Source of the DNA: Lysobacter sp. yr284
GTDB lineage: Bacteria > Pseudomonadota > Gammaproteobacteria > Xanthomonadales > Xanthomonadaceae
Length of the DNA: 64,000 bases
NCBI RefSeq assembly: GCF_900107375.1
Contig: NZ_FNPT01000020.1
Location: forward strand, 1-64,000
Direction of reading: 5' to 3'
Shown: positions 11,807-60,622 of the stretch, piece by piece
Layout: each line of letters begins with the position of its first letter
Position numbering within the stretch: the stretch's first letter is position 1
Notes under the pieces: model-generated
What the model saw: only the letters and a program-made list of their open reading frames with translations
What the model was told of the DNA's origin: nothing
The model's database searches: none
Translations under genes and position numbers: made by a program

Positions 11807-11871
11807 CTTGGGCACCTCGCGGAGAGTGGACAGGCGGAACTCATGGCCGGGTTACGGAGGGATGGAAGGCT

Positions 11872-11887
11872 TTTGGATCGTTCTAAA
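11872..11887. promoter_or_regulatory. LacI-type operator, copy 1
   Basis: tttggatcgttctaaa is a near-palindrome (TTTRGA-N4-TCTAAA type) and matches the reverse complement of the site at 11973-11988 at 15 of 16 positions. It lies about 65 bp before the LacI-type gene start, on the side that controls the minus-strand operon. Confidence 0.75.
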
Positions 11888-36920: not shown

Positions 36921-37068
36921 GGAGATTCGTTGATGTCCTGCTACTCCCGAAAACTAGGAATCGCGCCCCCGCTAGGTCCGTAGGTCGGATGCCCCAATGA
37001 CTAAACGCCGCGGCGAAAGGGCATCCACTTCGTCTCACTCCGTGCGATATTGACCCGATAAGCTGAGC

Positions 37069-37095
37069 GCTTAAGTTAGAGTGATCGGCTTAAGT
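37069..37095. promoter_or_regulatory. Direct repeats in the sspB upstream region
   Basis: Two copies of GCTTAAGT (37069-37076 and 37088-37095) are 19 bases apart, about two helix turns. A small hairpin, CTGA-TTTT-TCAG, follows at 37098-37109. They lie 115-140 bp before sspB in a 289-bp gap between the NDT-like gene and sspB, where its promoter should be. A regulator site is likely but its binder is unknown. Confidence 0.4.
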
Positions 37096-37209
37096 GTCTG
37101 ATTTTTCAGAAAATTCAGTGTGACGCTCCAATCGGTGTCAACTGCGCCAACTGGACAGCTTGTCCAGCCCGGGGTAGCCGCTGGTGGACCTCGCCAGTTA
37201 GAATGTTTC

Positions 37210-41440: not shown

Positions 41441-42272
41441 GCGGCACGTATTGGGCCTGTCAGGTGGCAAAGACAGCGCGGCGTTGGCTGTCTATATGCG
41501 ACTGCATCGCCCTGAGTTGGACATCCAGTATTTCTTCACCGACACCGGCAAGGAACTCAAAGAGGTTCATGAGTTCCTTGGAAAGCTCGAAGGCTTTCTG
41601 GGACGTCCCATCCAGCGCCTCAACCCGGATCGAGACTTTGATTTCTGGCTGCGGGAGTATGGGAATTTCCTGCCATCTCCCCGCACCCGTTGGTGCACTC
41701 GGCAGCTCAAACTGGCGCCCTTCCGGGACTGGATCAAGCCTTGGCTAGCTGCGGGCGACACGGTGCATAGCTATGTCGCTATCCGTGCGGATGAGCCTCA
41801 TCGCGAGGGCTATGACTCAGGTCACGACAACCTAACGGTGCATCTGCCATTCCGTGCTGCGGCGATCGACCATGCGGGCGTCATTGAGCTCCTAGAAGGT
41901 GCGGGCATTGGGTTGCCTCGTTATTACGACTGGCGTTCGCGTAGTGGCTGCACCTTCTGCTTTTTCCAGCAAAAAATCGAATGGGTCAGGCTCAAAGAGC
42001 GGCATCCAGAGGCGTTTGAAGAAGCCAAGCGCTATGAGAAGAGTGCCTTAGAGCACGGATCACCGTTCACTTGGAGTGACCGGGAGTCGCTGACCGAGTT
42101 GGAACAACCTGAGCGCATTGCGGCCATCGAAAAAGAGCATGAGCGCCGCAAGGCGCGGGCAAGAGCGCGCGTGAAGCCCAATCCGTTGCGGCCTGCTGGA
42201 TGTCAGCCCGAGGGCTTGGAGTTTGAAGAAACGTTCTCGGCCAGCAAGGCTTGCTTGGTGTGCCACAAGTGA
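41433..42272 (+). CDS. sspD: SspD-like PP-loop sulfurtransferase (PAPS reductase family)
   Basis: A 279-residue protein. The PP-loop is LSGGKDSAALAVYM, with SGGKDS at 10-15, the ATP pyrophosphatase motif of DndC/SspD and PAPS reductases. Cys88 (RWCTRQLKLAPF), Cys173 and Cys176 (SGCTFCFFQQ) and C-terminal Cys274/Cys277 (CLVC) are placed to hold an iron-sulfur cluster, as in DndC. It adenylates the DNA backbone for sulfur insertion and receives sulfur from the cysteine desulfurase encoded 33 bp downstream. BrxP of type 4 BREX is a relative but lacks this DUF4007 context. Confidence 0.87.
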   Translation: MTERHVLGLSGGKDSAALAVYMRLHRPELDIQYFFTDTGKELKEVHEFLGKLEGFLGRPIQRLNPDRDFDFWLREYGNFLPSPRTRWCTRQLKLAPFRDWIKPWLAAGDTVHSYVAIRADEPHREGYDSGHDNLTVHLPFRAAAIDHAGVIELLEGAGIGLPRYYDWRSRSGCTFCFFQQKIEWVRLKERHPEAFEEAKRYEKSALEHGSPFTWSDRESLTELEQPERIAAIEKEHERRKARARARVKPNPLRPAGCQPEGLEFEETFSASKACLVCHK

Positions 42273-42305
42273 ATACCTAAGTCGAGAAATTTACCTGGAG
42301 GCAGT

Positions 42306-43493
42306 GTGGGCGGTCGACGTCCCCTATATCTCGATCACAATGCAAGCACGCCTCCCTACCCAGAAGTTGTGGAGGCGATGTTGCCCTGGCTTCGAGACCA
42401 GCACGCCAACCCCCATTCGGATCACTTCCACGGGCGCCTAGCTGCGAATGCAGTCGAGCAAGCCAGGCACTCTGTCGCTCAGCTCATTGGGGCTTCGCCG
42501 GAGGAGATCATCTTCACCTCGGGGGCGACGGAGGCAAGCAATCTTGCATTGCAGGGATATCTACGCGAGCACGGGGACGTGGGCGCGCTCATTTACAGCG
42601 CGATAGAGCATCCTTGCGTCAGAGAAGTCGCGCTCGCCCTGGGTGGGCTTGGCACGCGGCTTCGAGAGGTTGAGGTCGACCGTCAAGGGCAGATCGATCC
42701 TTTGGCGATTGGCCAGGCGATCATAGTGGCGAGGCGAATGCGCTCGCTGGTATCAGTCATCCACGCCAGCAATGAAATTGGCACAGTTCAAGCGATTGCG
42801 CCTCTGGCCGCCGCAGCGCATGCGAATAGCGCACGGTTCCACCTGGACGTCAGCCAGAGCTTGGCATGGGTCGACATCGATGTGGGCGAGGGGATAGACC
42901 TCGCCACGCTCTCCTCCCATAAGATCGGTGGGCCAGCAGGTATCGGTGCGCTGTTCGTAGCCGATGGCTTGAAGAATGAGCTGACTCCGCTTGTCCGTGG
43001 CGGTGGTCAGCAAGGCGGGCTACGCCCAGGCACCATTCCGGTCTTCCTAGCGGTGGGCTTTGGCGCGGCGTGCGACCTGGTGTCCGTTGAACGAGCGAAG
43101 CGCACCTTGGCTGCAGAGAACGCTGCTAACGCCTTCTTGCGTGTGCTGGCTGACAGCGGAGCGGCTTTCGAGATAATGGGATCAACGCAGAGCAGCCTAC
43201 CAGGGCTCAGGAGCATCCGCTTTCCTGGCACAGAGGCGCGGGATCTTCTGGATCGCCTGCAAACCGATGTCTCTGCATCGCCCTCCTCAGCTTGTGCCTC
43301 TGGCGACTTCAAGGCGTCTCATGTGCTGAGGGCAATTGGTCTTAATGAGGTAGAAGCGATGCAGGTCGTGCGCTTTGGGTTTGGCGGCGCGACGTCGGTT
43401 CAAGATGCCGAGCTAGCCGCTCAGCATGTCAGCAGTGCTTTGATGTCTGCGTCCGGGGCCGAAGCCGATAGATATTCTCAGCCTTCTTCGTGA
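42306..43493 (+). CDS. sspA: Cysteine desulfurase, SspA/DndA-like
   Basis: A 395-residue PLP enzyme of the NifS/IscS class. Key features are LYLDHNASTPPYPEVVEAML at the start, TSGATEASNLALQGYL, ASNEIGTVQ, the PLP lysine Lys206 in SSHKIGGPAGIGAL and the sulfur-carrying Cys330 in SPSSACASGDF. It would mobilise sulfur from cysteine to SspD. The GTG at 42306 has a good ggagg site. In many genomes sspA lies apart from sspBCD; here it closes the operon, making the system self-contained. Confidence 0.9.
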   Translation: MGGRRPLYLDHNASTPPYPEVVEAMLPWLRDQHANPHSDHFHGRLAANAVEQARHSVAQLIGASPEEIIFTSGATEASNLALQGYLREHGDVGALIYSAIEHPCVREVALALGGLGTRLREVEVDRQGQIDPLAIGQAIIVARRMRSLVSVIHASNEIGTVQAIAPLAAAAHANSARFHLDVSQSLAWVDIDVGEGIDLATLSSHKIGGPAGIGALFVADGLKNELTPLVRGGGQQGGLRPGTIPVFLAVGFGAACDLVSVERAKRTLAAENAANAFLRVLADSGAAFEIMGSTQSSLPGLRSIRFPGTEARDLLDRLQTDVSASPSSACASGDFKASHVLRAIGLNEVEAMQVVRFGFGGATSVQDAELAAQHVSSALMSASGAEADRYSQPSS

Positions 43494-44975: not shown

Positions 44976-45130
44976 CCTGCGTCCACTGATCTCGGATTAT
45001 TCCACGCAGTAGGCCGTTATTTTGGTTACTGACGTCCGTGGGTGTCCGCTTGCATCCGTATCTAAGGTCAATAAGAGTGTGAGTACGGTCCCGATGGGAT
45101 CTATTGATTACTCACAAGACATTACTCACC

Positions 45131-45764
45131 ATGCTGACGGACACCAAGCTACGTTCGCTCAAGCCCAGAGCCAGCGTTTATCGGATGGCCGACTGCACCG
45201 GCTTGGCTATCGAAGTGCGCCCTACGGGGTCCAAGCAGTGGCGCTGTCGCTATCGCTTCGCCGGCAAGGCCAACATGGCTGCACTGGGTGAGTACCCGTC
45301 CATGTCGCTGCAGCAGGCGCGAGCAGAGCGCGACCGCCTCCGCGCCCTGCTGAAGGGTGGCTGATCCGTCGCAGGTCACCCGTGCCGAGAAGGTCGCCCT
45401 GGTTGAGCGTTCGGCCAACACCTTCGGTTTCGTGGCTAATGAACTGCTCGATAAGCGGGCCAAGGAGGGGCTTGGTGCTGGCTCGGTCAAGCGCGAGCGC
45501 CGGCTGATCGAGAAGGACTTGGCAGTCATTGCGGATCTGCCGGTAGCCGACATCACGGCGCCGGTCCTCTTGGCTGCCTTACGCAAGATCGAGAAGCGCG
45601 GCATCGTGGAAACGGCACACAGGGCTCGATCTCTGTCTGGGCGCGTGTTCCGCTACGCGATCGCGACGGGTCTGCGCGGAGCGCGCCCCCTGCCTGGTAT
45701 GCCGTCCAGCTTCGTACGAGAGGGCGTGTCGCCCAAATCGCGCCGAGCCCACAAGAAGGATTGA
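45131..45764 (+). pseudogene. Decayed P4-type tyrosine integrase, copy 1
   Basis: The frame starting MLTDTKLRSLKPRASVYRMA has the DUF4102 arm-binding domain (GLAIEVRPTGSKQWRCRYRF). It stops at a TGA at 45362-45364 and resumes one frame over as ADPSQVTRAEKVA. The core-binding domain (SVKRERRLIEKDLAVIADLP) follows. The match ends near FRYAIATG, so the catalytic domain with the Arg, HxxR and Tyr residues is gone. It lies directly outside the right end of the transposon, as expected for an integrase that once adjoined the tRNA-Ile2 site. Confidence 0.85.
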
Positions 45765-45853: not shown

Positions 45854-47485
45854 TTAACGGCCAACTGCAAGCTCAGGGACCCCATCAATTTGGCGGACTA
45901 GTAGTCGCGCCCCAATTGAGTCCAGAAATCCCCGAATATCGCGCTGCATTCGCTTGACGGATTCGATGTTGTCCAAAGCAGGCTGTAGATCGCCTTGGTG
46001 AAGCGAATAAATCGCGTTACCCAGGACCTCTGGTAGGGATATCGAAGCCTTCTTGACGCTGGCGATTCCCAGAGGCGACTGCAGGCGGTGTCGCGATAGT
46101 TTCAGGCGGTACGACTTGCCACGGCGTTCGTCCTGAATTTCCATCGAAAATGATGAGGACGAGAAGTACGGGGTCACCGCATTCAAGCGAACGGCCCGGT
46201 CGTGGAAATCCAGCAGCGGCAGCCCTGCTGCGTCCACCTTGGCGGCAAGCGTCCTCAATCCAGTGAGGATATGATCGTCTTCGATGAGAACCCAGCCAGT
46301 GCCGCTAGCTATCGACACGCCAACCGCCAACTCTTCGATGTCATCCCCACGGCGTACGGCCACAAGCCAGTTCAGAAGGTCGATTTCGTCAGCATCTAGG
46401 CCGACATGGACTTGCCGCTCTCGGCCTGTGGTGCCGACAAAAAAAGGTTCCGATGGCTTGCCGGGAGTGTCGATGGGATCCTTCAACGGAGAGGCGGTGC
46501 CGATCGGAGTCGTGAATGCATCCGGGTCGAGCGCCGGACCGCCTTGTCGAATGGCATCGACGAAGGCCTTGGCTCCCGCCGCATTGACGCCAGCGGCCAA
46601 CTCTTCGGACGTAAACCAGGCAAATCGTTCGGGATGTGCAGCCATGCAGCGCAGCAGACCTGTCTTACCTGCATCGTTCAGGGCAACGCTAAAGGGCTGT
46701 ATGTGATACTCGGTAGCGGAGTACGCACTCTTCGCACCTTCTAGGGCGATGTAGTGGATGGGTTCCCCCAAGGGAATCTCGGCCTCGAAGGCGTTGCCGG
46801 AAATCTCAAGTTCTTCTCGTAGCTCCCGCCTCACAGTTTGTGAGAAGGCGTAACGGATGTGACGGGGGTCGATCTCCACGTTGGGATCGAAGAAGTCAAG
46901 GCATCGGGAAGCGGTCAGCCTCACTGGCTTAGGCAGATCCTCGTTAGACACGCGACCGCCAGGAAATACGAATTGGCCCCGGCTGCCGTCCCGAAAGAGT
47001 GCGGGATCTTCCCGGCGGACCATCAGGAATTTCTCATCCAGTGCGATCCATGCCCAGGAAACCCAGACCCGCCGGATAGGCACCAACCCAGCCGGCAACG
47101 CCGCTCGGAACTCCTCTGATTGTTTGATGAGCGCCCGCTGCCGATCCACCAGGTACTCACTGGCATTCCAGAAGCCTGGTTCCAGCAGCCGGAACTCCGC
47201 TTCGCCTAAGCCACCCAGCACGCTGCGGGCTAGGAGAGACGCTGGGAAGGAGACGAAGGCCCATACCCCGGTACCCAAACGCGCCTCATCGAGCACAGAC
47301 AGGGCTTGGAGCAGGCGCCGGACCACGCCGAGTGCGGAGCCGGCCTCCTCCACCACGATGCCCGTGGCGTTGACCAGGCGTTCGAGGAGGTCGGTCTCGG
47401 GGATCTCCTCCCGGTCGCTGCTCTCCTCGGCGATCCGGGGGAGGATTCGGGAGACCTCGGCCAGTAATTTGTTGGAAGGGTGCAT
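45854..47485 (-). CDS. Large Nudix-like protein with interrupted Nudix box
   Basis: A 543-residue protein. A Nudix-type domain covers about 140-320: the strand IALDEKFLMVRRED, then FVFPGGRVSNED (Gly176-Gly177) and, 42 residues later, RRELREELEIS (219-229). In a normal Nudix box (GX5EX7REUXEEXGU) these parts are adjacent, so an insertion separates them. An N-terminal helical domain (~1-130) and a C-terminal domain (~345-543) are not recognised. Nudix enzymes cleave nucleoside diphosphates linked to another group. It is divergent from the hsd operon across 208 bp and may be a separate island gene. Confidence 0.65.
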   Translation of the reverse strand: MHPSNKLLAEVSRILPRIAEESSDREEIPETDLLERLVNATGIVVEEAGSALGVVRRLLQALSVLDEARLGTGVWAFVSFPASLLARSVLGGLGEAEFRLLEPGFWNASEYLVDRQRALIKQSEEFRAALPAGLVPIRRVWVSWAWIALDEKFLMVRREDPALFRDGSRGQFVFPGGRVSNEDLPKPVRLTASRCLDFFDPNVEIDPRHIRYAFSQTVRRELREELEISGNAFEAEIPLGEPIHYIALEGAKSAYSATEYHIQPFSVALNDAGKTGLLRCMAAHPERFAWFTSEELAAGVNAAGAKAFVDAIRQGGPALDPDAFTTPIGTASPLKDPIDTPGKPSEPFFVGTTGRERQVHVGLDADEIDLLNWLVAVRRGDDIEELAVGVSIASGTGWVLIEDDHILTGLRTLAAKVDAAGLPLLDFHDRAVRLNAVTPYFSSSSFSMEIQDERRGKSYRLKLSRHRLQSPLGIASVKKASISLPEVLGNAIYSLHQGDLQPALDNIESVKRMQRDIRGFLDSIGARLLVRQIDGVPELAVGR

Positions 47486-47610
47486 TCACCTATTGTGACC
47501 GCACTTGCCGCGGCGGCACTAATGCTGATCCTCCGCCTCCGCTCCTCCCGGTTGGAAGCCATAGAGGACAAACTGGGCGACTTGGTGGGGTGACCCCTTT
47601 AAAGTATTGA

Positions 47611-47635
47611 GGTTTAGGCGCCAAGGCGCCAAACC
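47611..47635. promoter_or_regulatory. Hairpin in the hsdR upstream region
   Basis: GGTTTAGGCGCC (47611-47622) and GGCGCCAAACC (47625-47635) form a near-perfect stem around AA. A second hairpin, cccctgttccgggg, follows at about 47640-47653. Both lie 40-80 bp before hsdR and could be operator or attenuator structures. Confidence 0.4.
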
Positions 47636-47693
47636 CGGGCCCCTGTTCCGGGGACACTCTCCCAACAGCGGAAACTGCCCTAAAGGCATTCAA

Positions 47694-49985
47694 ATGACAC
47701 GGAACGAGCGACTAACCTGCAAAGAAGTCATCGAGCCCCAATTGGCGGCGCTCGGCTGGGCGCTGCAGGAGCAGCTGCGTATTGGCCCGGGGCGGGTCAA
47801 TCTCACCGGCGAGGCGATGTACGACGAGACGCAGTCGATCATCGCCGACTACCTGCTGCGCTTCAAAGGCGTGCCTCTGGCTATTGTCGAGGCGAAGTCG
47901 GAGGCCGAAAGTGCGGCTGATGGCATGCAGCAGGCGTCTCGCTATGCCCGTCGCCTCTCCCTGCGATTCTCAATTGCCTCAAACGGCAGTGATTGGATCC
48001 TGACCGACAATGACACCGGCGAGTTCGAGTCGCGGAGCGCGCCGCCCTCTCCAGAAGAGCTTGTCGCCCGCATGGGGGCTGCTGTCGATTGGTCGCGTTG
48101 GGAAGGGGCATTTTCCGCCGGCTACCACATGGATCAGGTGTCGCGCAAGGCCGTGCGTCCCTACCAGGATGTAGCTATCAACAAAGCCTTGTGGCAATTC
48201 GCGCAAGGCGACGATCGCGTGTTGCTGCTCATGGCCACGGGCACTGGCAAGACCTTCACCATCTTCCAGCTGGTATGGAAGCTGTTGAATGGCAAGGCCC
48301 TTAAGCGCGAGCACGTCCTGTTCCTGACCGACCGGAACAGCCTCAAGGATCAGGCCTACCGCGCCTTCAGCGCCTTTTCCGGTGCCGAGCGCGTGCAGAT
48401 CGACAAAGACACCGTCGCCCAAGGCCAGCATCTGGTGGGGAAAGTGTTCTTTGCCAACTACCAAAGCCTCGACGAGGAGTTGGAGGGCAAGAAGGTCTAC
48501 GAACACTACGACCCTGATTTCTTCGATCTTGTTGTTGTTGACGAGTGCCACCGCTCCGGCTTTGGTGACTGGTTCGGCGTGCTCAAGCATTTTGGAGGCG
48601 CCCTACAGCTCGGTCTGACAGCTACGCCGCGCGAGCTAGAGGAGGGTGAGCGCGCGCTTACCACCGAGGAGAAGCGCCGCGACACCCAGCACTATTTTGG
48701 CGATCCGGTCTTCACCTATACGCTCAAGCAAGCCATCGAGGATGGCTACTTGGTGCCCTACCTGTTGGAAGAGCGCATTACGAATGTCGACGAGGAGGGC
48801 TATACCGGCCCAGACGGCAAGCGCTATACCACCGCCAACTTTGAGCGCGACATCCGCATGCCGGACCGTACGCGCGCCATCGCCGAGGATCTCTGGGAGG
48901 TGCTGGGCAAGTATGAGCTACGCGACGAGAAGACGATTGTCTTCTGTGTGGATGACACCCACGCGGCGTTCATGGCGCAAGAGCTACGCCGCCTCTCTGG
49001 CAACGGCGATTACGCTGCGCGCATCACACGTGCTGAGCGCAACAGCCACCAACTAGAACGCAACTTTGCGGTCGTCGGTCCCAGCAATCCGCGCGTTGCT
49101 GTAACCGTCGACCTGCTGACCACGGGATTTGACGCTCCAGACGTCAAGAATGTGGTGTTCATGCGCCCGCTGCGCAGTGCCATCCTCTACAAACAAATGA
49201 AGGGGCGAGGCACCCGATTGTGTGAGGACATCAACAAGCGCTACTTCACCATTTTCGACTATTCGGGCGCCAGCGCGCTGGAAGACACCGAGTTCGATGG
49301 CCATCCTGCAAACCGCCAAAAGGCCCCTTCCGGCAGCAAGCCCAAGAAGAAGAGTGGAGATGACACCCTGCCTAAGCCGATCGGCGAGGGCGTGTCCGTC
49401 ATTATCTCCGCCGAGAACCGCTACGTTTGCCTAGCCGATGGCAGCAAGATTCCGTTCGAGGAGTACGCCGAACAGTCGCGCGAGTTCATCCTGGACGTCA
49501 GCCATAAGGGCATGGATGAGCTGCTGCGCATCTGGATTGACAAGGGCAGTCGTCAGGAACTTCGCGAAGCGCTGCGCGACCGCGATATCTATCCCTCCGC
49601 ATTCCGGCATTACCTGGATCTCCCGGATGCCGACGACGTAGACATCCTCGCCAAGATCGGATTCCAGCTACCGCGGGTGCCCAACAGGGCCGATCGCGCC
49701 AACCGCCTTTGGGACGAGGATCAGATCTGGTTGCTGGCCCATCTGGGCGAAGCCGCGCTGCCTGAAAGCGAGCGCTTCAAATCCCGTCTGTGGCAGACCG
49801 CGCTCGATCACTACCGGCTGTTCGGCATCGACGACCTGGAGCAGGCTCGCACCTACAGCGCTCCGCAGTTTTACGAGCAGTTCGGCAGCTTCACCACGCT
49901 TACCAATCGCTACGGCGGTCCGGTTCTGCTGAAAACTGATCTCGAACTGGTGAAGCAGCACCTTTACGTGCCCATGGCTGCTTAA
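47694..49985 (+). CDS. hsdR: Type I restriction enzyme R subunit
   Basis: A 763-residue motor-nuclease. The N-terminal PD-(D/E)xK nuclease shows Asp52 (IADYLLRF) and Glu67-x-Lys69 (AIVEAKSE). The SF2 helicase has Walker A ATGTGKT (181-187), DECH (283-286), LGLTATP and the C-terminal motif TGFDAPDVKNVVFMRPLRS then YKQMKGRGTRL. It translocates DNA and cuts unmodified DNA with HsdM and HsdS. The ATG at 47694 starts the family domain; upstream frame to 47607 lacks conserved sequence. It leads a five-gene operon to 58257. Confidence 0.95.
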   Translation: MTRNERLTCKEVIEPQLAALGWALQEQLRIGPGRVNLTGEAMYDETQSIIADYLLRFKGVPLAIVEAKSEAESAADGMQQASRYARRLSLRFSIASNGSDWILTDNDTGEFESRSAPPSPEELVARMGAAVDWSRWEGAFSAGYHMDQVSRKAVRPYQDVAINKALWQFAQGDDRVLLLMATGTGKTFTIFQLVWKLLNGKALKREHVLFLTDRNSLKDQAYRAFSAFSGAERVQIDKDTVAQGQHLVGKVFFANYQSLDEELEGKKVYEHYDPDFFDLVVVDECHRSGFGDWFGVLKHFGGALQLGLTATPRELEEGERALTTEEKRRDTQHYFGDPVFTYTLKQAIEDGYLVPYLLEERITNVDEEGYTGPDGKRYTTANFERDIRMPDRTRAIAEDLWEVLGKYELRDEKTIVFCVDDTHAAFMAQELRRLSGNGDYAARITRAERNSHQLERNFAVVGPSNPRVAVTVDLLTTGFDAPDVKNVVFMRPLRSAILYKQMKGRGTRLCEDINKRYFTIFDYSGASALEDTEFDGHPANRQKAPSGSKPKKKSGDDTLPKPIGEGVSVIISAENRYVCLADGSKIPFEEYAEQSREFILDVSHKGMDELLRIWIDKGSRQELREALRDRDIYPSAFRHYLDLPDADDVDILAKIGFQLPRVPNRADRANRLWDEDQIWLLAHLGEAALPESERFKSRLWQTALDHYRLFGIDDLEQARTYSAPQFYEQFGSFTTLTNRYGGPVLLKTDLELVKQHLYVPMAA

Positions 49986-50020: not shown

Positions 50021-51502
50021 GTGAATAAGAACAAGGCCGACCACCGCCGCACCGAGGTGCAGCAAATCGTTAAGAACGCCTGCGACCAGCTCAATTCGGA
50101 GGGCGTGGACGCCCGCAACTACGTGGAGCAACTCGCCTGGCTCTTCTTTCTGAAGGCCTTTGACGAAACCGAGACACGCAAGGAGCAAGAGGCCGCCTTC
50201 GACGACACACCTTACGAGCGTCGCCTAACGGGTGATTACGCCTGGAGCCATTGGGCCAAAGACACCGACCACCCCGACGAGATGCTCGAGTTCGTCGACG
50301 GGAAGCTGTGGATCAAGCTCACCAGCCCGGACCCCGCCAAAGGCCTGGGCGACGACGCGCTGGCGCAGCGCTTTCGCCGCATCTTCGACAACGTGCGCAA
50401 CTACAGCCGCCGGGGCGTGAGCTTTGCCAAGGTAGTGCAGCAGGTGGACAAGCTGCACTTCTCCAGCGAGACCGACGTCATCGTGCTGTCGGAAATCTAC
50501 GAGGACCTGCTCAAGCGCGTTGCGGCCGACTCGGCCGGCTACGCTGGTGAGTTCTACACCCAGCGCCACATCATTCGCGCCATGGTGCAAGTGGTGCAGC
50601 CACAGCCCAGCGAGCATGTGTACGACCCCTGCTTTGGCACGGCCGGGTTCCTGGGTGAAGCTGCGGACTACTTGCGCCACAACAGTACCCTCAGCGGCAA
50701 GCAACTCGACGACCTGCAGCATAAGACCCTCTACGGCCTGGAGCTCAAGCCGCTGACCTACCTGCTGGGATCGATGAACATGATCCTGCACGGCATCGAG
50801 GGCGCCAGCCTGGAACTGGCCAACACACTGGAAGTGCACAGCCAGAACGTTGCTGAGAAAGACAAATACCAGGTCATCCTTGCCAACCCTCCCTACGGCG
50901 GGAAGATGGCGCAGGAACTGCAAACCAACTTCCGTGTCCGCTCCGGCGCCACAGAGTGTCTGTTCCTGCAGCACATCATGGCCAACTTGGCCAAGGGCGG
51001 TCGCGCGGCGGTGGTCATTCCCGAAGGCGTGCTGTTCCGTGGCGGCCCGGATCAAAAGGTGCGCAGAGAGCTTCTGGAACAGTTCAAAGTGCACACCATT
51101 CTGTCGCTGCCAGCAGGCTGTTTCCTGCCCTACACAGGCGTCAAGACCAACGTGATCTTCTTTGATCGTGCGCAAGACGGTTCGGGTACGGAGTCTGTCT
51201 GGTATTACGACCTGACCAACGACGGCTACGAGCTCAAGCAGACGCGCAAGCCGATTGCAGGCAACCAACTGCCCGACTTCCTGGCCAAGTGGCAAGGCCG
51301 CGTGGAGAGCGACAACTCCTGGTCCGTACCGCTGGCCGCCATCGTGGCCAAGGGTTACGACCTCTCGGCCAAGAATCCGAACAAGGTGGATGACTACGAG
51401 CACCAGCCAGCGCTTGGGTTGGTGCAGGCAATAAAGGCAAAGGAAGCGCGCATCTCTGAGCTCCTGGATGAACTCGAATCTTTGCTGGAAGGTGACAAGT
51501 GA
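50021..51502 (+). CDS. hsdM: Type I methyltransferase M subunit
   Basis: A 493-residue N6-adenine methyltransferase. The HsdM N-terminal helical domain covers ~10-150. The SAM-binding motif is YDPCFGTAGFLGEAADYL (about 201-218) and the catalytic motif is NPPY (289-292). It modifies adenines in the site chosen by HsdS and protects host DNA. The GTG at 50021 has aagaagga nine bases upstream. It lies 35 bp after hsdR and overlaps hsdS by four bases. Confidence 0.96.
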   Translation: MNKNKADHRRTEVQQIVKNACDQLNSEGVDARNYVEQLAWLFFLKAFDETETRKEQEAAFDDTPYERRLTGDYAWSHWAKDTDHPDEMLEFVDGKLWIKLTSPDPAKGLGDDALAQRFRRIFDNVRNYSRRGVSFAKVVQQVDKLHFSSETDVIVLSEIYEDLLKRVAADSAGYAGEFYTQRHIIRAMVQVVQPQPSEHVYDPCFGTAGFLGEAADYLRHNSTLSGKQLDDLQHKTLYGLELKPLTYLLGSMNMILHGIEGASLELANTLEVHSQNVAEKDKYQVILANPPYGGKMAQELQTNFRVRSGATECLFLQHIMANLAKGGRAAVVIPEGVLFRGGPDQKVRRELLEQFKVHTILSLPAGCFLPYTGVKTNVIFFDRAQDGSGTESVWYYDLTNDGYELKQTRKPIAGNQLPDFLAKWQGRVESDNSWSVPLAAIVAKGYDLSAKNPNKVDDYEHQPALGLVQAIKAKEARISELLDELESLLEGDK

Positions 51503-52689
51503 AGCCGATAGGTTGGAAAACTAGAAAGCTCGGTGAGCTTCTAGATGTTCAGAATGGCTTCGCCTTCGATTCCGCTCTTTTCTCAGAATCTGCGGGGATG
51601 TCGCTTATCCGGATCCGCGACCTGAAGAACGGCTCAGCAACTGTTATCCGCTACAACGGGGCCTATGACGAACGCTTTGTTGTCCGGGAAGGGGACCGCC
51701 TTATAGGCATGGATGGCGAGTTCCGCTGCTATGAGTGGCGTGGAGGTGAGGCGCTGTTGAATCAGCGAGTCTGTCGTTTGGTCGATTTCTCCGACGAGAT
51801 AGACCCTGAGTTCGTTGGATTTGGAATCAACACTCACCTCAAGGAAATCGAAGAAGCCACGCCGTTCGTAACGGTCAAGCACCTGTCTGCCAAGTCGATT
51901 CGTGGCATCGAGTTCTCTTATCCAGAGCTTCCAGAGCAGCGACGCATCGTCGCCCGCATTAAGGAATGCATGGAGCGGGTGGGGGAGGTTGAAGAACTGA
52001 AGAGTTCCTCACGGGTTCAGCAGCAATGCTTGTCTGCCTCATTGATCGAGTCGGAGTTACATCCCGACGTGACGTGCATCGAAGGCTGGGCAACGCGCAC
52101 TGTTGGCGAACTTGTCACCACAGTTCGAAATGGAAGATCCATTGCTCAGGATACTGAAGGCCTAGCCGATGGTGCGGTGTTGACCTTGACAGCGGTGCGA
52201 GGCATCGACCTGGGGATCGAATTTCAAAAAGCCATCGCGCTGCCCAAGGAGGTTGCCAAGCAGTTCGGCATCGATGCGGGCGACGTTTTTGTGTCGCGTG
52301 CGAACACCATCGAGTTGGTAGGGCTATCTGCGGTAGCAATGGATGCGCCGACGGAGCGGCTAATCTATCCAGATTTGCTCATCAAGCTTAAGGTCAACCC
52401 TTCGATGATCCTTCCGCGCTATATGGCCTACGCCTTGCGTAGCGCCAGTTCCAGGAAACAGATCAAAGCGCGCGCGCTTGGGTCGAGCCAGACGATGGTG
52501 AAGATCTCGGGTGAACGACTCCGGGAAGTGAGTATCCCGGTTCCGTCCTTGGCCGAGCAAGAAAGGATTGTCAGCCGGCTGGACGCAGCACACGATGTGA
52601 TGCGCCAACTGGCAACCGAGTCTTTGCCCGGTGAGATCGAAGTGCTTCGCAGGGCTGTCCTCCGCAAAGCCTTCGCCGGGGAGCTGTGA
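51499..52689 (+). CDS. hsdS: Type I specificity S subunit
   Basis: A 396-residue specificity protein with two target recognition domains: the first opens WKTRKLGELLDVQNGFAFDS, the second WATRTVGELVTTVRNGRSIA. Conserved helical spacers follow each (LPEQRRIVARIKECMERVGE; LAEQERIVSRLDAAHDVMRQ). It chooses the bipartite DNA site for HsdM and HsdR. The GTG start overlaps hsdM and its stop overlaps the next gene (GTGA). Confidence 0.94.
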   Translation: MKPIGWKTRKLGELLDVQNGFAFDSALFSESAGMSLIRIRDLKNGSATVIRYNGAYDERFVVREGDRLIGMDGEFRCYEWRGGEALLNQRVCRLVDFSDEIDPEFVGFGINTHLKEIEEATPFVTVKHLSAKSIRGIEFSYPELPEQRRIVARIKECMERVGEVEELKSSSRVQQQCLSASLIESELHPDVTCIEGWATRTVGELVTTVRNGRSIAQDTEGLADGAVLTLTAVRGIDLGIEFQKAIALPKEVAKQFGIDAGDVFVSRANTIELVGLSAVAMDAPTERLIYPDLLIKLKVNPSMILPRYMAYALRSASSRKQIKARALGSSQTMVKISGERLREVSIPVPSLAEQERIVSRLDAAHDVMRQLATESLPGEIEVLRRAVLRKAFAGEL

Positions 52690-55600
52690 GCATCGTGGTG
52701 AATAAGTCGCTACGTGACGGTGCCGCACATTGGGTAGCGGCCTTGGATTCGCTCAGAGGTAAGTTGGGCGAGCCCAAGTCGTTCATCCGTGAGGTCTTCG
52801 CGGCGTTCCTGCTACTGCGCTTGACCGACCTGCGAGACGCCGAGCAGGAGGCGATGGCGACGTTCGAGGATCGCTCGCACCACCCGTTGTTGCCACTGGC
52901 GCTTCAATGGCGCCACTGGTCCCGTCTCGAACAACCGCAGTCCATCGCCGATCGGCTGAGCCAGCTTGCTCGCTACGTAACAGGGTTGCGCGGTGACGCA
53001 GGTGATCCGATGGCGGCCTACTTGCACGCCTTAGCAGGCCCTTTGCATCGTGTGCTGAAGGTGGACTTCGTTTATCTACTCGACCTAGTTCGATGGGTGG
53101 GCGAAGTCCCCTTCGAGACGCCGAGCGAGCGGCGCGCCCTACTTGAGGTATTTGACCAGGTAATGGCCGAAACGGGTGATGCCCGCGATGGCGAGTTTTC
53201 CACGCCAATCGACATTGCCCGCCTGGTTGCGGCGTTAGCGAACCCGCAACCTGGGGACCGTGTGTATGACCCGTGCTTCGGGTCCGGCAATTTTCTGGTG
53301 GCCGCCTGGCAGCAAGCCGAGCGCAGCCGCACGGAACTGCGCCGACCGGGTGCTTTGCTGGAGGTGGCGGGGATCGAGAAGAATGCCGGCGCCTTCCTGA
53401 TTGGCTTGACGCGCATGCTGCTCGCAGGCATTGAAAGCCCGAATCTTGAACTCGGCAACAGCCTGGAACGCGAGTCGCTTAGTAGTCCCAGCCGGCAGGG
53501 CTTTAATGTGGTGGTGGCGAATCCGCCCATCGGCGTCAAGATCAGCCGTGAGCCATGGCGCTATCAACACTTTGCAATCCCGACTAGCGACAGCACAGGG
53601 CTGTTTGTGCAGCACGCGTTGTCGCAGCTAAGGCCGCATGGCCGCGCCGTCATTGCAGTTCCGGAGGGCTTTTTGTTTCGGAGCGGCGGAGACCGTAACC
53701 TCCGGCGCCACTTATTGGAGCGGGGTCACGTAGAGGCAGTAATCGGCCTGCCAGCAGGAGCGATCGCGCCATACACCAGCGTCAAGGGCAGTCTGCTCGT
53801 GCTGAGCAAGCAAGGTGGTGCCAGCCGGGTGCGGATGGTCGATGCCAGCGCCTTGTTTGTGCCCGGGTCCGGACACAAGGGGCCGGGACAGCGGTCCGGT
53901 CCATTGGGACAAGTGATTCCAAGTCTACTGGCCGAGCAACTGGCCAGCGAAGTGTTTCGCGGCGAGCTGCGTCAGCCGCGTGAGCTGCCTCCCGGCATCT
54001 CTGAAGGTGCGCCGGGTACTGGCGTATTGTCACGTTCCGTTTGGGAGGTAAGTGTTGATGAACTCGCCGCCGCCGATTGGGACTTGTCACCCCGGCGACG
54101 CGAAAAGGGTGGGCTGGATGAACTGCTGGGCAGCCTCAAAGAGACATCGGGCAGTTCGAGTGCGCTAGTGTCGCTGTCGGAAGTGGCCGAGGTGTTCGGG
54201 GGACGCTCAATCAAGTCTGCGGACTTAATTGATGAGCCGCCCTTCGAGCGGGCTGCGGGGTATGTACGCATCAAGGATCTGGGCCAAGGCAAGGTTGGTC
54301 GCGTTTCTAACTGGCTGACGCCGGAGTTGGCTAGTCAGGAGCAGCGCTGGGCGCTGTTGCCCGGTGACGTACTGTTGTCCAAGTCAGGCACCATCGGTAA
54401 GTCCGCCTTGGTGCGAAATGGCGCGGTCGGCTCGATCGCAGCAAGCGGCCTTTACGTACTACGTGTAGATCAAGAAAGGCTGGATGCTGGGTTCTTGCTG
54501 GCCTACCTGGCCAGTCCCGCTTGCCAGAACTGGTTAGCGGCGCAATCGCGCGGCGCAGTAATCCAGCACCTCAATCGAGCGGTGCTGAATAACTTGCCCG
54601 TCCCGTTGCCGCCATTGCAATTGCAGGCCCGTGCCGCTGCGCAGTTCCGCGAATTCGGCACCGATGCGCTTACCTTCCTGTCGCAGGCAACTGAAAGCAA
54701 CGAATCGGACCGCCTGACAAGGTGGCTCGCTGATTTAGACGGCAAAGTGCCCAAGTTTGTGGGTGGACTGGACGATACCCCGGCACTTAGCCACTTCGAG
54801 TCTATTGTGGTCTTGGCCGGCAGGGCACGACGCTGGCTGGATCAGGAACAAGTGGGCAGCCAGGCGGTGCGTTGGCTGAAGCCGCTTACAGAGACCCTGC
54901 TACCGCTGGTGGGAGTTGCCCAGATACCGCCCGGACCTGGACTGTTGAACGTATTGCAGGAGGCCGAGCGCGGTGTGCAGACCGTGCTGGAGCAGACCAC
55001 TGGTCACCTGCCTACGGAATCCCAAGCGCGAGCTATCGGCGAGCGATTGCGCGAATGGCTGCGCGCGGCCGTGGCCGACTTGGTCAACGCTGTTGGGTTG
55101 CGGGTGCGCATCTCTCCCGACTCCCTGGTTGCGGGCACCTTTGCCGAGTTCTCAGTCGAACTAGAGAACGCGGGCGCGTTGCCGCTTCGTAATGTTCGCG
55201 TGGCGACCCAGCCTGACTGGGGCGTCGCGGAAGTCGCCTATCTCACCGAGCGCGGGGCGTTTGCGGTCCATTTGCGGGGTGACGTGCCCAAGCGAGGCGG
55301 TAGGCTGTCGTTGCGGCTGCTGTGGCAGGCCCGTGCATTGTCGGGACAACTGGTAGAGGATGAAATCGAACTGGCGATCCGCGTCAAAGAGACCGAGCAA
55401 ATCGCAGGCGCACCTGCTCCCGAATTGGGCGGTAGTCCCTATGTGACCGGCAGCCCACTAGAGCCGCAGCACGGGCACAGCGTCTTCTATGGTCGTGAGG
55501 AGTTGATTGCCACGATCAGTCGCCAGATCTCAACCCATGGCAATGTCGTGCTGCTAGAAGGCAATCGACGCGCGGGTAAGACCTCCATCCTTAAACACTT

Positions 55601-56693
55601 GGAGGGGCGATCAGCAATCCCGGGCTGGTTGGCCGTCTATTGCAGCCTGCAGGGAGCTGAAGGCGATTTGCACGCGGTCGGCGTGCCTACGGCGGAGGTA
55701 TTCCGTGAGGTCGCCCGCAGCATTGCCACGCCGTTGACCAAGTTGCGTATCGAAGTGCCGCTACCCAACGGGCAGATCCTTGCCGCCGGCAAGCCGGCGC
55801 TCGGGGTTGCGCGAGCCTGTCGCGAAGGCATCGGTACCGAGTCACCCTTTGCCGACTTCCGCGACTATCTGGAAGGGGTTCTGGCCGCGCTGGAGCCTCT
55901 GAACCTGGGTCTGGTGCTGATGCTCGACGAGTTCGACAAGCTTCAGGAGGGCATCGATAACGGTGTTACGTCACCGCAGGTGCCTGAGAATATCCGATTC
56001 CTAATTCAGAGCTACCCGAAGTTCTCGGCCATCCTGACTGGATCACGCCGTCTCAAGCGCCTGCGAGAGGAGTACTGGTCCGCGTTGTATGGCTTGGGAA
56101 CTAGCATTCCGGTGACCGCCCTGGATCCCGAAAGCGCGCGCAAAGTGGTAGTGGAGCCCGTCCTAGATCGTTTGACGTTCTCCCAGGAGGCCGTCGATCG
56201 GGTGATCGAGGTGACGGCGCGACATCCATACCTGATGCAATGTTTGTGCAACCGGGTGTTCGACTACGCGGTGCAGGCTAAGAGCCGATCGATCACAGTG
56301 AGCGTGGTCAACGCTGCAGCGTCCAATCTGGTGCGCGACAACGAGCATTTCGCAAGCCTATGGGACTACGCCGCCCTAGGCCCGGAGACTGGCCGTCATC
56401 GCCGGCAGATGATTCTGCTGCTTTGCGCGCGGAGCCTCAAGCAAGGAACTCATATCGGCTTCGGTACCCTTCAAGAGCAGTTGGCGCAGGTGGGTGTTGA
56501 TGTCGATGACGAGGCGCTGGATGCCGATCTGACCTATCTGCGCGAGTTGGAGCTAATTGACCTTTCCGGCGAGATCGGCGATGGCGAGTATCGCCTGACC
56601 ATTCCGCTGATGGCGGATTGGATCGAACAACAACAGGATGCCGACGTGGTTGCCAGTCGCGTTCGCACAGAAGCCGAGGAAGAAAATGCCTGA
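52686..56693 (+). CDS. Methyltransferase-specificity-Ig-ATPase fusion protein
   Basis: A 1335-residue four-part protein. (1) ~1-420: HsdM-like adenine methyltransferase with DPCFGSGNF (195-203) and NPPI (279-282). (2) ~496-650: one HsdS-like recognition half (SLSEVAEVFGGRSIKSADLI ... LPVPLPPLQLQARAAAQF). (3) ~800-900: an Ig/CARDB-like beta domain (LVAGTFAEFSVELENAGALP). (4) ~930-1310: STAND/ORC-like ATPase with Walker A EGNRRAGKTS (~957), Walker B LVLMLDEFDKL (~1075) and a C-terminal winged helix. It overlaps hsdS and the next ATPase gene. I know no standard type I subunit of this layout. A methylation-sensing or DNA-anchored defence ATPase is possible. Confidence 0.82.
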   Translation: MSIVVNKSLRDGAAHWVAALDSLRGKLGEPKSFIREVFAAFLLLRLTDLRDAEQEAMATFEDRSHHPLLPLALQWRHWSRLEQPQSIADRLSQLARYVTGLRGDAGDPMAAYLHALAGPLHRVLKVDFVYLLDLVRWVGEVPFETPSERRALLEVFDQVMAETGDARDGEFSTPIDIARLVAALANPQPGDRVYDPCFGSGNFLVAAWQQAERSRTELRRPGALLEVAGIEKNAGAFLIGLTRMLLAGIESPNLELGNSLERESLSSPSRQGFNVVVANPPIGVKISREPWRYQHFAIPTSDSTGLFVQHALSQLRPHGRAVIAVPEGFLFRSGGDRNLRRHLLERGHVEAVIGLPAGAIAPYTSVKGSLLVLSKQGGASRVRMVDASALFVPGSGHKGPGQRSGPLGQVIPSLLAEQLASEVFRGELRQPRELPPGISEGAPGTGVLSRSVWEVSVDELAAADWDLSPRRREKGGLDELLGSLKETSGSSSALVSLSEVAEVFGGRSIKSADLIDEPPFERAAGYVRIKDLGQGKVGRVSNWLTPELASQEQRWALLPGDVLLSKSGTIGKSALVRNGAVGSIAASGLYVLRVDQERLDAGFLLAYLASPACQNWLAAQSRGAVIQHLNRAVLNNLPVPLPPLQLQARAAAQFREFGTDALTFLSQATESNESDRLTRWLADLDGKVPKFVGGLDDTPALSHFESIVVLAGRARRWLDQEQVGSQAVRWLKPLTETLLPLVGVAQIPPGPGLLNVLQEAERGVQTVLEQTTGHLPTESQARAIGERLREWLRAAVADLVNAVGLRVRISPDSLVAGTFAEFSVELENAGALPLRNVRVATQPDWGVAEVAYLTERGAFAVHLRGDVPKRGGRLSLRLLWQARALSGQLVEDEIELAIRVKETEQIAGAPAPELGGSPYVTGSPLEPQHGHSVFYGREELIATISRQISTHGNVVLLEGNRRAGKTSILKHLEGRSAIPGWLAVYCSLQGAEGDLHAVGVPTAEVFREVARSIATPLTKLRIEVPLPNGQILAAGKPALGVARACREGIGTESPFADFRDYLEGVLAALEPLNLGLVLMLDEFDKLQEGIDNGVTSPQVPENIRFLIQSYPKFSAILTGSRRLKRLREEYWSALYGLGTSIPVTALDPESARKVVVEPVLDRLTFSQEAVDRVIEVTARHPYLMQCLCNRVFDYAVQAKSRSITVSVVNAAASNLVRDNEHFASLWDYAALGPETGRHRRQMILLLCARSLKQGTHIGFGTLQEQLAQVGVDVDDEALDADLTYLRELELIDLSGEIGDGEYRLTIPLMADWIEQQQDADVVASRVRTEAEEENA

Positions 56694-58257
56694 CAGCCAA
56701 TTTCCGATCTTGGGCACGATAGTTCCACCTATGCTTGGGCGAGCAGCTATTCTGGAGAGGATAATTGGATCGCTGACGAAGGCGACCCCGGATCATTTGC
56801 AGATGGTTGGCCCTCGATTCGCAGGCAAGACAGTCGTTCTACATGAACTTGCGAACCAACTGCGAAGGATCGGTTCGCCTTACTCGGCGATTGTACTGTG
56901 GGATCTTGGGCATCAGACGCCGCGTTCTGACGAGATCTTCATGCAGAACCTCGCGAGGGAGTTGTCTGCTGCGCTGGCGGGTAGCTTCTCCGTCTATGCG
57001 GATCATCTCAAGAACCCGCAGGGCAATCCCTATCAGGAAATAGCCGAAGTCCTGGATTTGCTCAAGGATGAAGATGTCAAAGTTCTCTTGATCATGGACG
57101 GCTTTGACAAGCCGCTATCCAATGGTCAACTGACTCGCAATCTGTGGGATCAGTTGCGGGAACTTGCGCTCAAATCAAGCTTGCGACTGATCACTGCCAG
57201 TCGGCGCACCCTGCGTGACCTTATCCGCAATCCCGATGCACAGACTAGCGATTTCTGGAACATATTTGATCCAACCCCAGTTCGTGTAGGTTGCTTCGAT
57301 GACAGAGACTTAGGGGCCATTTTGGCGACAGTACCTGCGCAGAAACTCGGCCCAGGTGCTGAGACCGAGCTTTGGAACGCGAGCAATGGATTCCCCGTCT
57401 TGATGCTAGGCGTCTTGAACGCGACTTATGGAGCCGTCACGAAGGAAGCCATTGGTCCAGAAGTGATTAATGCTGCGTGTAATTCCGCATTTCCAGCGCT
57501 GCTCGACAAACTGGACGCACTCTGGCTTGATTGTTCGCCCTCTTCGCAAGATCTTCTGAGGCGTGTTCTGGACGAGGATGTCGTTAGTCGTGCCGGCATT
57601 GCCAGCGGAGATGCCGAGACGCTGCTTGAGCGAGGATTTGTTCGCTCGGCGGGGAATAAGCTCCAAGGGCCGAGCCGGTTGCTTCGTAGGTATCTTGATG
57701 AGCAGCCAAACGAAGGTAGTGCGCTCGCGCGGCTGTTCGGTGCGACTGATGCCTACCAAAGGAATCTCAAAGGGGTACTGGAGCGACGGATTGGGGCAAT
57801 CAGTGGTATTGATTCAACACTGAAGCGCTACCTTGAGCGCAGCGCCGAAGAGCTCCCAGACCATCCCGACGTCTTTCTGAGTAACGTGCGTGGCATCGTA
57901 GACAAGGCGTTCGACCTAATTTGGGCGGCTGAGATTCCGAACAAGAAAATTCCTTCGGGCTGGATGTCGATATGGAAGCGAAACAATGAGCTGAGGGTTG
58001 ATGAATGGGAGACGACCTTCCCCCAAGGGGGGCGTCGAGTGGTTCTCCTGAAGTTGATGACTGGTAGTGAGAGAAGTGCCCCCTGTGCGAAGTACGTCAC
58101 GAAGGGAACCCATGTCTTGTTGGACGCCGTCCATGCCTTTGGAGACTTTGGGCAGCATCAAGAGGGCGCACGGATCGATTCAGGTATGGCGTATGCGGCC
58201 CTTCATTTGTGCATCGAGCTTTCCGCATGCCTGGCTTGCGAGCTTCCAAAATCGTAG
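56686..58257 (+). CDS. Second STAND-like P-loop ATPase
   Basis: A 523-residue ATPase from the ATG at 56686, overlapping the fusion gene by eight bases. Walker A is GPRFAGKT (42-49), Walker B VLLIMDGF (133-140), with a sensor-like LRLITASRRTLRDL strand after it. The architecture parallels the ATPase domain of the preceding protein (GREEL-type start there, LGRAAILERII here). The C-terminal ~180 residues (PDHPDVFLSNVRGIVDKAFD ... MAYAALHLCIELSACLACEL) are not recognised and may be the effector or partner-binding part. Co-translation suggests a complex with the fusion protein. Confidence 0.75.
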   Translation: MPDSQFPILGTIVPPMLGRAAILERIIGSLTKATPDHLQMVGPRFAGKTVVLHELANQLRRIGSPYSAIVLWDLGHQTPRSDEIFMQNLARELSAALAGSFSVYADHLKNPQGNPYQEIAEVLDLLKDEDVKVLLIMDGFDKPLSNGQLTRNLWDQLRELALKSSLRLITASRRTLRDLIRNPDAQTSDFWNIFDPTPVRVGCFDDRDLGAILATVPAQKLGPGAETELWNASNGFPVLMLGVLNATYGAVTKEAIGPEVINAACNSAFPALLDKLDALWLDCSPSSQDLLRRVLDEDVVSRAGIASGDAETLLERGFVRSAGNKLQGPSRLLRRYLDEQPNEGSALARLFGATDAYQRNLKGVLERRIGAISGIDSTLKRYLERSAEELPDHPDVFLSNVRGIVDKAFDLIWAAEIPNKKIPSGWMSIWKRNNELRVDEWETTFPQGGRRVVLLKLMTGSERSAPCAKYVTKGTHVLLDAVHAFGDFGQHQEGARIDSGMAYAALHLCIELSACLACELPKS

Positions 58258-60068: not shown

Positions 60069-60622
60069 ATGCTGACTTTTAGGTTGATGGTGGGACCTGT
60101 TAGTCCGGTGGTTGTCCGAACGCGTTTCGCTCGGGAGGCGAGAGCCGAGCGGGACCGGCTGCAGGCATTGGTCAACGGGGACGCGAACCCTGCCCAAGTA
60201 GCTCGTATCGAGCGCGCCGCGCAGACCGAGCGTGCTGAACCCACCTTTAGCGCGATCGCCATCGAACTACTGGAGAAGCGAACCAGGGAAGGGCTGACTC
60301 CCGCGTCGGTAAAGCGGGAACGTCGCTTGATCGAGAAGGACCTGGCGTGCATCGGCGATATCTCGATTACGGACGTAACGGCACCGGCCCTGCTGGCAGC
60401 CTTGCGCAAGTTGGAGAAGCGCGGTGTCGCCGAGACTGCGTACCGGATGCGCTCGCTATCGAACAGCAATTGGCGCATGCGGTCAGGGATCCGCTCGGGC
60501 GCGCCTACAACCGCACCGCCCGCTTGGTTGAGCGAAAGAAGATGATGCAGGCGTGGGCCGACTATCTGGACGGACTGCGGCTCAATTCCAAGGTGGTTCC
60601 GATGCTTCGTCGTGCCGGATAA
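60069..60622 (+). pseudogene. Decayed P4-type tyrosine integrase, copy 2
   Basis: The frame enters integrase homology at EARAERDRLQALVNGDANPA and runs through SVKRERRLIEKDLACIGDIS to ETAYRMRSLS. It then jumps, one frame over, to the extreme C-terminus (EQQLAHAVRDPLGRAYNRTA ... MMQAWADYLDGLR). The catalytic core is deleted and most of the N-terminal arm-binding domain is replaced. It is the same family and orientation as the remnant at 45131 and marks the right side of the restriction island. Confidence 0.82.

Follow-up and report, generated by a model that had tools for sequence, protein, structure and literature searches.

The F-A2 gene pair and the adjacent type I genes

The stretch of DNA analysed here (the window) comprises 64,000 nucleotides of Lysobacter sp. 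yr284 (assembly GCF_900107375.1, contig NZ_FNPT01000020.1, positions 1 to 64,000 of the forward strand). On its plus strand, an open reading frame at 52686..56693 encodes a protein of 1335 amino acids (aa), named F below, in which a part resembling the methyltransferase subunit of type I enzymes (M-like), one half of a specificity subunit (half-S), an immunoglobulin-like (Ig-like) part and a STAND nucleoside triphosphatase (NTPase) follow each other in a single frame without internal stop. A second frame on the same strand (56686..58257), the product of which is named A2, encodes another STAND NTPase. Judged from sequence, the pair F-A2 looks like an apparently undescribed defence module present across many bacterial phyla.

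The N6-methyltransferase domain of F (aa 158-391; 53157..53858, plus strand) is matched by Pfam N6_Mtase at E 1e-38, with motif I (DPCFGSGNF) at 53268-53294 and motif IV (NPPI) at 53520-53531, both on the plus strand. In a phmmer search against PDB sequences, residues 38-480 of F resemble the type I M subunit 5ybb_A (E 8e-47), including an HsdM-like N-terminus, and residues 544-670 resemble the S subunits 5ybb_D, 3okg_A and 8vsq_A. A single HsdS-type recognition domain (aa 495-658; 54168..54659, plus strand) is matched by Pfam Methylase_S at E 3e-10. The STAND-type NTPase and C-terminal part (aa 925-1325; 55458..56660, plus strand) is matched by AAA_16 over aa 934-1088 (E 5e-9) and, under that model's cut-off, by nSTAND1; its Walker A lies at 55560-55583 and its Walker B at 55917-55940 (both plus strand). 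An earlier note on this DNA had read F as one protein composed of a methyltransferase, one HsdS half and a Walker A/B ATPase, and the unbroken frame together with the Pfam and PDB-sequence matches bears this out; A2 had not been part of that reading. The same note had proposed an Ig/CARDB-like domain between half-S and the ATPase. An Ig-like part, weakly supported by sequence, does lie there (aa ~801-912; 55086..55421, plus strand): across 26 members, NPCBM_assoc/NEW3 matches it in two (best E 0.002), and N828 is invariant in the alignment. The CARDB model matches in one of the 26 (E 0.085), and the Ig-like part of the window F has no Pfam match.

Among the domains of F, the NTPase is the most conserved, 72 of its 226 alignment columns being at least 90% conserved (the methyltransferase domain has 28 such columns of 245, the recognition domain 17 of 166). 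All 37 aligned F sequences, window included, have a Walker A of the form GNRRxGK[ST]S and the Walker B DEFDKLQE, and D195, P196 and C197 of motif I are invariant in the 36 rows of alignment A3, from which the copy L004 was left out. The NTPase part of A2 (aa 1-344; 56686-57717, plus strand) is homologous to that of F (hhalign 98.5%, E 3e-15), and its residues G47, K48, D138, G139 and D141 are invariant in 39 of 39 sequences (alignment A1, L004 and L041 left out). The predicted model of A2 (mean predicted local distance difference test, pLDDT, of 87) has an NLR/ORC-like fold, residues 1-344 matching archaeal ATPases, ORC/Cdc6, plant NLR resistosomes and CED-4 in a comparison with the PDB. The P-loop Walker A and the acidic Walker B of STAND proteins are thus present in F by its sequence, and in A2 by sequence and model. 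The remainder of A2 (aa 345-523; 57718-58254, plus strand) is a DUF4145-like domain, identified by a profile match, with an invariant His at 58156-58158.

Directly upstream of F and on the same strand lie the genes of a type I restriction-modification (R-M) system. HsdR (47694..49985, plus strand; open frame from 47607, likely ATG at 47694) is an EcoAI/EcoE-like restriction subunit, with 518 bits to NCBIfam restrict_EcoAI (cut-off 550) and matches to HSDR_N, ResIII and EcoEI_R_C. HsdM (50021..51502, plus strand) is matched by N6_Mtase (E 4e-66) and HsdM_N (E 8e-14), and HsdS (51499..52689, plus strand) has two recognition domains, matched by Methylase_S in two stretches (E 1e-23). The neighbours of F therefore comprise a helicase-nuclease HsdR, an HsdM with NPP[YF] and a two-domain HsdS, as expected of a type I system. 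In class A, as we call the loci in which F is preceded by hsdR, hsdM and hsdS of one subfamily, the DECH and TATP motifs of HsdR are kept in 21 of 21 aligned sequences (L014 and L019, with R in two frames, omitted) and motif IV of HsdM is NPPY in 21 of 21 (L014 and L046, with M in two frames, omitted), the window being included in both counts. The gene pairs M/S, S/F and F/A2 overlap, the GTG start codon of F overlapping the hsdS stop and the end of F the A2 start, and 35 bp separate R from M, in agreement with the earlier placement of F in one operon with a full hsdRMS set.

Distribution of F-A2 and loss of the restriction-modification genes

A genome collection described as covering 84,980 species was scanned with peptide patterns taken from the window protein, a procedure that recovers close relatives only, and gave 42 loci. 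They come from Proteobacteria (in the old wide sense), Planctomycetes, Acidobacteria, Nostoc, Chloroflexota, Gemmatimonadetes, Spirochaetaceae, Verrucomicrobia and Fimbriimonadaceae, and, going by database entry names, F relatives span nine or ten phyla. An additional copy (L004) is carried by an Acinetobacter ursingii plasmid, with 47.5% identity over 97%. Single-frame relatives longer than 1000 aa occur at 36 other loci, so that the classed set comprises 37 frames (the window, L004 and 35 genome loci); L033, L044, L047, L049, L050, L051 and L055, in which F is partial or short, were left unclassed, and L012, a duplicate of L024, was excluded from the counts. The methyltransferase, half-S and NTPase segments are matched in all 36 other frames, and the segment between half-S and NTPase in 34 of them (L053 and L054 excepted). 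Since so many copies carry the same segments in one frame, the fusion in the window is not a chance joining. That separate genes were wrongly joined, as the earlier note had considered, or that F is an inactive relic, would find some comfort in the class A locus L014, where regulator, R and M are each in two frames; given that F and A2 are intact there and that the NTPase sites are conserved throughout the 36 copies, we regard this as extremely improbable. The frames of L014 (Pseudomonas sp. KNUC1026) may reflect decay or sequencing error. At the unclassed locus L051, the F relative (9288-11873) has no methyltransferase domain and consists of half-S and NTPase, A2 still being downstream.

The F gene is rare. 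Within the order of the host, it was found in one of 299 genomes, which is the host's own. In a scan of the phylum, six of 398 genomes gave a match at E 1e-8 and two of them, the host and G475, contain a full-length copy. The other four were discarded as F relatives, the matches covering the NTPase region or beyond only, at 28-29% identity and in frames of 441-839 aa; two of these proteins (L008 and L009, 835 and 791 aa) show hydrophobic N-terminal stretches by eye. HsdM of the class A subfamily (E <=1e-150) is present in two of the 398 genomes, in both cases adjoining F, although these numbers are small. Among the 1210 plasmid records matched by HsdM, no sequence reached 60% identity, the best among the matches listed being 42%. 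In IMG/VR contigs, eight pattern matches contained no F relative, and the C-terminal half of F had no match in phage records.

The search for proteins with the same domain order and for their neighbours, which the earlier note had suggested, reveals one constant and one variable element. In each of the 43 fetched loci, A2 comes after F on the same strand. R, M and S vary: 23 of the 37 F frames belong to class A, two (Acinetobacter L004 and Citrobacter L018, one clade on the tree) have only HsdR upstream, with the DECH and TATP motifs lost, and 12 have no R, M or S of the class A subfamily. The latter 12 and the two loci with a decayed HsdR, 14 F frames without full dedicated R/M/S, form class B. 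In two of the 12 (L021 and L023), ordinary type I genes of distant kinship (28-30% identical) occur 3.8 and 5.9 kb upstream, beyond intervening genes. The sequence upstream of F extends over 744 bp in L040 and 1987 bp in L041. At two loci, remnants accompany an intact F: an HsdR remnant of 128 codons (58% identical) lies just upstream of F in L045, and a 52-aa HsdS remnant just upstream of F-A2 in both L034 and L045, which indicates that the R-M genes were lost there and F-A2 was kept. When HsdM of class A was sought elsewhere in 13 class B genomes, some of them incomplete assemblies, it was not found in 12; the exception (G693) carries it within a separate class A cassette, and the same search found HsdM in three of three class A genomes used as control. 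On the F-NTPase tree, the R/M/S context changed at least five times, three of these changes being forced by starred branches.

Within class A, the R-M genes follow F closely. The median identity is 0.70 for R and 0.73 for M, compared with 0.40 for the methyltransferase domain and 0.55 for the NTPase of F, and the identities of R and M correlate with that of the F-NTPase at 0.88 and 0.89. These values suggest that the R-M genes upstream of class A F often form a dedicated system. They also bear on the proposal that F-A2 regulates the neighbouring type I enzyme as a switch, in which F would replace M or dock on the R2M2S complex and the NTPases would license or restrain HsdR. Because R and M are so tightly tied to F, this is the strongest rival to the interpretation given below; the overlaps between M, S, F and A2 point the same way, as does the resemblance of the A2 C-terminus to DUF4145, HsdR-like sequence being encoded around 15 of 30 fetched DUF4145 matches. 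However, F-A2 without dedicated R/M/S in 12 of 37 frames, generally with no close M found elsewhere in the genome, and the HsdR retained without helicase motifs in the Acinetobacter-Citrobacter clade speak against a switch, which we consider rather unlikely.

Other recurrent neighbours were few. Only a CARF-sigma54 activator, described below, is widespread (20 loci), and two clusters of three loci each proved to be HsdS-like pieces and an opposite-strand ATPase. In class A, 0.7-2.2 kb separate M from S or S from F at L020, L028, L032 and L054. Between hsdM and hsdS, L028 carries a ThsB-like TIR gene (4859-5812; PADLOC, 381 bits) and L054 an AlbA/Schlafen-like gene (8231-9634; by eye) with weak PADLOC matches to Argonaute-associated models.

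Recognition domain and motif IV of F, upstream regulator and A2 C-terminus

The earlier note had considered that F might read the same site as HsdS. Among 97 class A pairs whose F-NTPases are more than 0.6 identical, median identities are 0.23 and 0.22 for the recognition domains of HsdS and 0.49 for that of F, the medians of the other parts being 0.77 for R, 0.82 for M, 0.47 for the F methyltransferase domain and 0.48 for the A2 NTPase; these pairs share rows and are not independent, and dissimilar HsdS domains align only roughly, yet the two kinds of domain differ strongly. Over all class A pairs, the identity of the F recognition domain correlates with that of the F-NTPase at 0.90, whereas the HsdS domains give 0.11 and -0.05. 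In some pairs, one HsdS domain is common to both members (identity about 0.8) and the other is not. By these identities, HsdS specificities are swapped between close relatives and the recognition domain of F is inherited with F. Reading of the HsdS site by F is therefore not supported, and F may read a fixed site other than that of HsdS. Prediction of the F site from HsdS was abandoned, the best class A HsdS match to the recognition domain of the window F being 32% identical (L030) among the matches listed; the window's own HsdS gave no match to this domain at E 1e-3.

In N6-adenine methyltransferases, motif IV contributes an aromatic residue that stacks against the flipped adenine and without which activity is usually lost. 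The pattern [NDS]PP[YFW] expected of an active enzyme is intact in 13 of the 37 F sequences and non-canonical in 24, with at least four changes on the tree; the window F, with NPPI, is among the latter, other forms being HPPV, QPPV, APPW, VPPW and TPVT. The F lineages with NPPW, DPPW, NPPF or DPPF may still methylate. F could then be a functional methyltransferase that modifies a fixed site of its own, A2 and the NTPase acting on unmethylated foreign DNA by a logic like that of BREX or MADS. The 13 canonical sequences, mostly NPPW, the invariant motif I residues and the conserved recognition domain, as one fixed site would predict, are in line with this explanation. It is nevertheless unlikely in our opinion, as motif IV repeatedly became non-canonical while the recognition domain and the NTPase persisted, and a self-protecting mark that is lost when its reader is kept should harm the host. 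For the same reason, together with the 12 F-A2 loci that have no dedicated R/M/S, the coupling of DNA methylation status to the ATPase suggested in the earlier note finds no support.

A gene for a CARF-sigma54 activator lies upstream of the cassette in 20 of 43 loci. Its CARF half was re-found by tblastn in the same 20 loci, and as a fragment in L040, and three activators tested against PADLOC matched the RtcR_PspF2 CARF_AAA_HTH model with 651-674 bits; a search of the CARF half against PDB sequences returned nothing convincing. Between the end of the regulator gene and the first gene of the cassette, 17 of the 20 loci have a -24/-12 promoter with one mismatch or none, nine sites being perfect, against about 0.5 expected in the ~10 kb searched (background 0.045 per kb). 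Of the remaining three, L016 and L046 have two-mismatch sites and L029 none. Among 13 loci without a regulator in view, the site is perfect in L032 and L054, has one mismatch in L038 and two in L021, L023 and L052, and is missing in seven. RtcR-like proteins unlinked to Rtc are frequently associated with R-M systems according to the available text of Makarova et al. 2014 (PMC4012209). The regulator and its promoters point to an inducible cassette in many hosts, RNA damage being a conceivable signal.

The C-terminal domain of A2 could represent the output of the pair. In hhalign, its alignment scores 31.8 against DUF4145 (30 loci, of which 29 were taken and 28, then 27, kept), 60 column shuffles giving at most 13.9 and reversed and unrelated alignments 12-18. 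DUF4145 is presumably a member of the HEPN superfamily. Against HEPN_Swt1 itself (11 of 12 matches aligned), the scores were no better than those of the controls, and this candidate was dropped. Pfam found HEPN_Swt1 in one A2 member (E 0.098) and DUF4145 in one (E 0.14), and a PDB sequence search with the domain gave nothing convincing. The His is invariant in 39 of 39 sequences. The Arg of an R-x4-H motif (FRNRxxH; FRDFGVH in L016) accompanies it in 11 and is missing in 28, among them the window A2 (FGDFGQH), which leaves the R-x4-6-H motif of HEPN nucleases incomplete in these. The ten FRNR rows alone scored 17.3 against DUF4145, no clear match. With the Arg in just 11 sequences, nuclease activity is not claimed. 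In one alternative, A2 would be a HEPN-type RNase effector released by F that causes abortive infection through RNA cleavage, and RNA ends with cyclic phosphates would feed back on the CARF activator; the DUF4145 match and the invariant His favor it, and the CARF domain of RtcR binds tRNA fragments with cyclic phosphate ends, as stated in the available text of PMC7790460. Considering the missing Arg and the HEPN scores at control level, we find this quite unlikely.

Possible role of F-A2, related systems and the rest of the window

Taken together, the constant NTPase pairing, the conserved NTPase sites, the losable methyltransferase motif, the stable recognition domain and the survival without R-M fit an alarm better than a second modification enzyme. 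We propose, with a probability of roughly 0.45, that F-A2 is the core of a paired STAND-NTPase alarm, in which F would be the sensor with a fixed specificity and which would often act as a second layer behind R-M. The receptor would be made of a type I M subunit and half an S, independent of HsdS, joined via the Ig-like part to the STAND NTPase, and two copies of F would together restore a DNA channel like that of M2S. The trigger engaging this receptor would be DNA with a fixed feature or a DNA-mimicking anti-restriction protein. An ATP-driven assembly of F with A2 would then launch a response, A2 acting as the partner NTPase and its DUF4145-like domain as an output or docking part. The CARF-sigma54 activator would often control the cassette. 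In most loci F-A2 stands behind a dedicated type I system, so that restriction would act first and F-A2 would serve as the second layer. The receptor role, the ligand, the dimer, the assembly and any defence outcome are what we infer from the arrangement and conservation described above.

A narrower version of this proposal concerns the trigger. DNA-mimic proteins block the DNA channel surface of type I methyltransferases (on Ocr and PARIS, see PMC9122126). Since a dimer of M and half-S parts would rebuild the very channel that such proteins block, F may be an integrated decoy, often freed from catalysis, which would bait DNA-mimic anti-restriction proteins of phages or plasmids and fire the NTPase pair. 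Disabling the R-M system of the first layer would thereby trigger F-A2. We hold this to be possible, if somewhat unlikely.

Several observations weigh against the paired alarm. The tight co-inheritance of R and M with F equally fits a direct role in restriction, and the 13 F sequences with a canonical motif IV are potentially active methyltransferases. A link between motif IV loss and R/M/S loss did not hold either: the motif is missing in 14 of 14 class B sequences, but in 10 of 23 class A sequences too, and independent pairs were non-significant. The few A2 sequences with the Arg leave an RNase output unsupported for most members. Finally, the window cassette itself has no adjacent CARF regulator and no sigma54 promoter match in the region upstream of hsdR (47486..47693).

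No described system with the layout of F was found in the open-licence literature, and neither PADLOC nor NCBIfam gave a match that identifies F or A2 as a system, the matches being to component or broad models (for F, among the best 25 of 131); the earlier note's impression of novelty stands, and a match to an already named defence family, which it had allowed for, did not appear. Components are shared with several known systems. Type I R-M enzymes of the EcoAI/EcoE kind provide the canonical R, M and S adjoining F, and the N-terminal half of F equals M plus half an S, but F adds the Ig-like part and the STAND NTPase, often has a non-canonical motif IV and is independent of HsdS specificity. 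With STAND defence proteins (NLR-like, Avs), F and A2 share Walker A and B, and the A2 model is STAND/NLR-like; they differ in that the proposed sensor of F is an R-M methyltransferase/specificity unit and that two homologous NTPases form a fixed pair. Among PADLOC Avs models at E 0.01, only Avs5 matched, in two of 39 A2 (best E 5e-4) and in none of 35 F C-terminal halves. PrrC and PARIS also have an ATPase tied to or guarding R-M, with a proposed second-layer logic in the available text of PMC12707154 and PMC9122126, whereas the proposed sensor of F is made of M and S parts; no PrrC, AriA or AriB model was among the E 0.01 matches of the same 39 A2 and 35 F C-terminal halves. The regulator upstream of F is of the RtcR-like CARF-NtrC-HTH type, for which the R-M link was reported in PMC4012209; F, A2 and the sigma54 promoters do not appear in the available text of that paper.

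In MADS, the methyltransferase MAD2, the S-like MAD5 and the ATPase mad8 weakly match parts of F or A2, but they are separate models there and one protein in F. The scores of F, 58.2 bits for MAD2 and 62.3 for MAD5, are far below the NCBIfam cut-offs of 720 and 400 and speak against membership in MADS, although no scan was aimed at all eight mad genes. The mad8 model weakly matches 21 of 39 A2 (best E 4e-6) and also SspH of the window (9e-23), and is therefore broad. The BREX PglX model also scores F far below its threshold (BREX_1_MTaseX 15.9 bits, threshold 500). CoCoNuT systems place an RtcR-type CARF protein upstream of mixed R-M operons (PMC11090510), and BREX-related superoperons join an ATPase with methyltransferase and helicase (PMC12839542); no fusion of M, S and STAND is described in the available text of these two papers. 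From sequence, F-A2 would be a STAND defence whose sensor is of a new kind and which is linked to a dedicated R-M system. If F-A2 is indeed an alarm with a receptor derived from a restriction enzyme, a single operon unites two major defence logics of bacteria, restriction and sensing by NLR-like STAND proteins, and offers a directly testable case in which the guard or decoy was made from the enzyme that it guards. A decoy of this origin would correspond, in bacteria, to the integrated decoys of plant NLRs. The HsdS swaps under a constant F and the persistence of F-A2 after R/M/S loss lead to clear predictions.

The remainder of the window contains other mobile and defence genes. Divergent from hsdR, a gene at 45854-47485 (minus strand) encodes a 543-aa protein with a weak NUDIX match (E 0.005, below the cut-off) and no phmmer match at E 1e-5 across the fetched loci. 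An Ssp phosphorothioation gene set was matched by PADLOC at 26987-43493 (SspF 26987, SspG 28891, SspH 30444, SspB 37120, SspC 38123, SspD 41433 and SspA 42306), and at 21136-26017 three minus-strand genes resemble, by eye, a Tn7-like transposase set (TniQ-, TniB- and TniA-like). From about 16 to 62 kb, the guanine-cytosine content of the window is 0.52-0.64, below that of the left flank (0.66-0.76). Two tyrosine-integrase-like pieces, seemingly of the same kind by eye, lie on either side of the R-M-S-F-A2 genes (45104-45764 and 60069-60545), which suggests repeated integration of an island.

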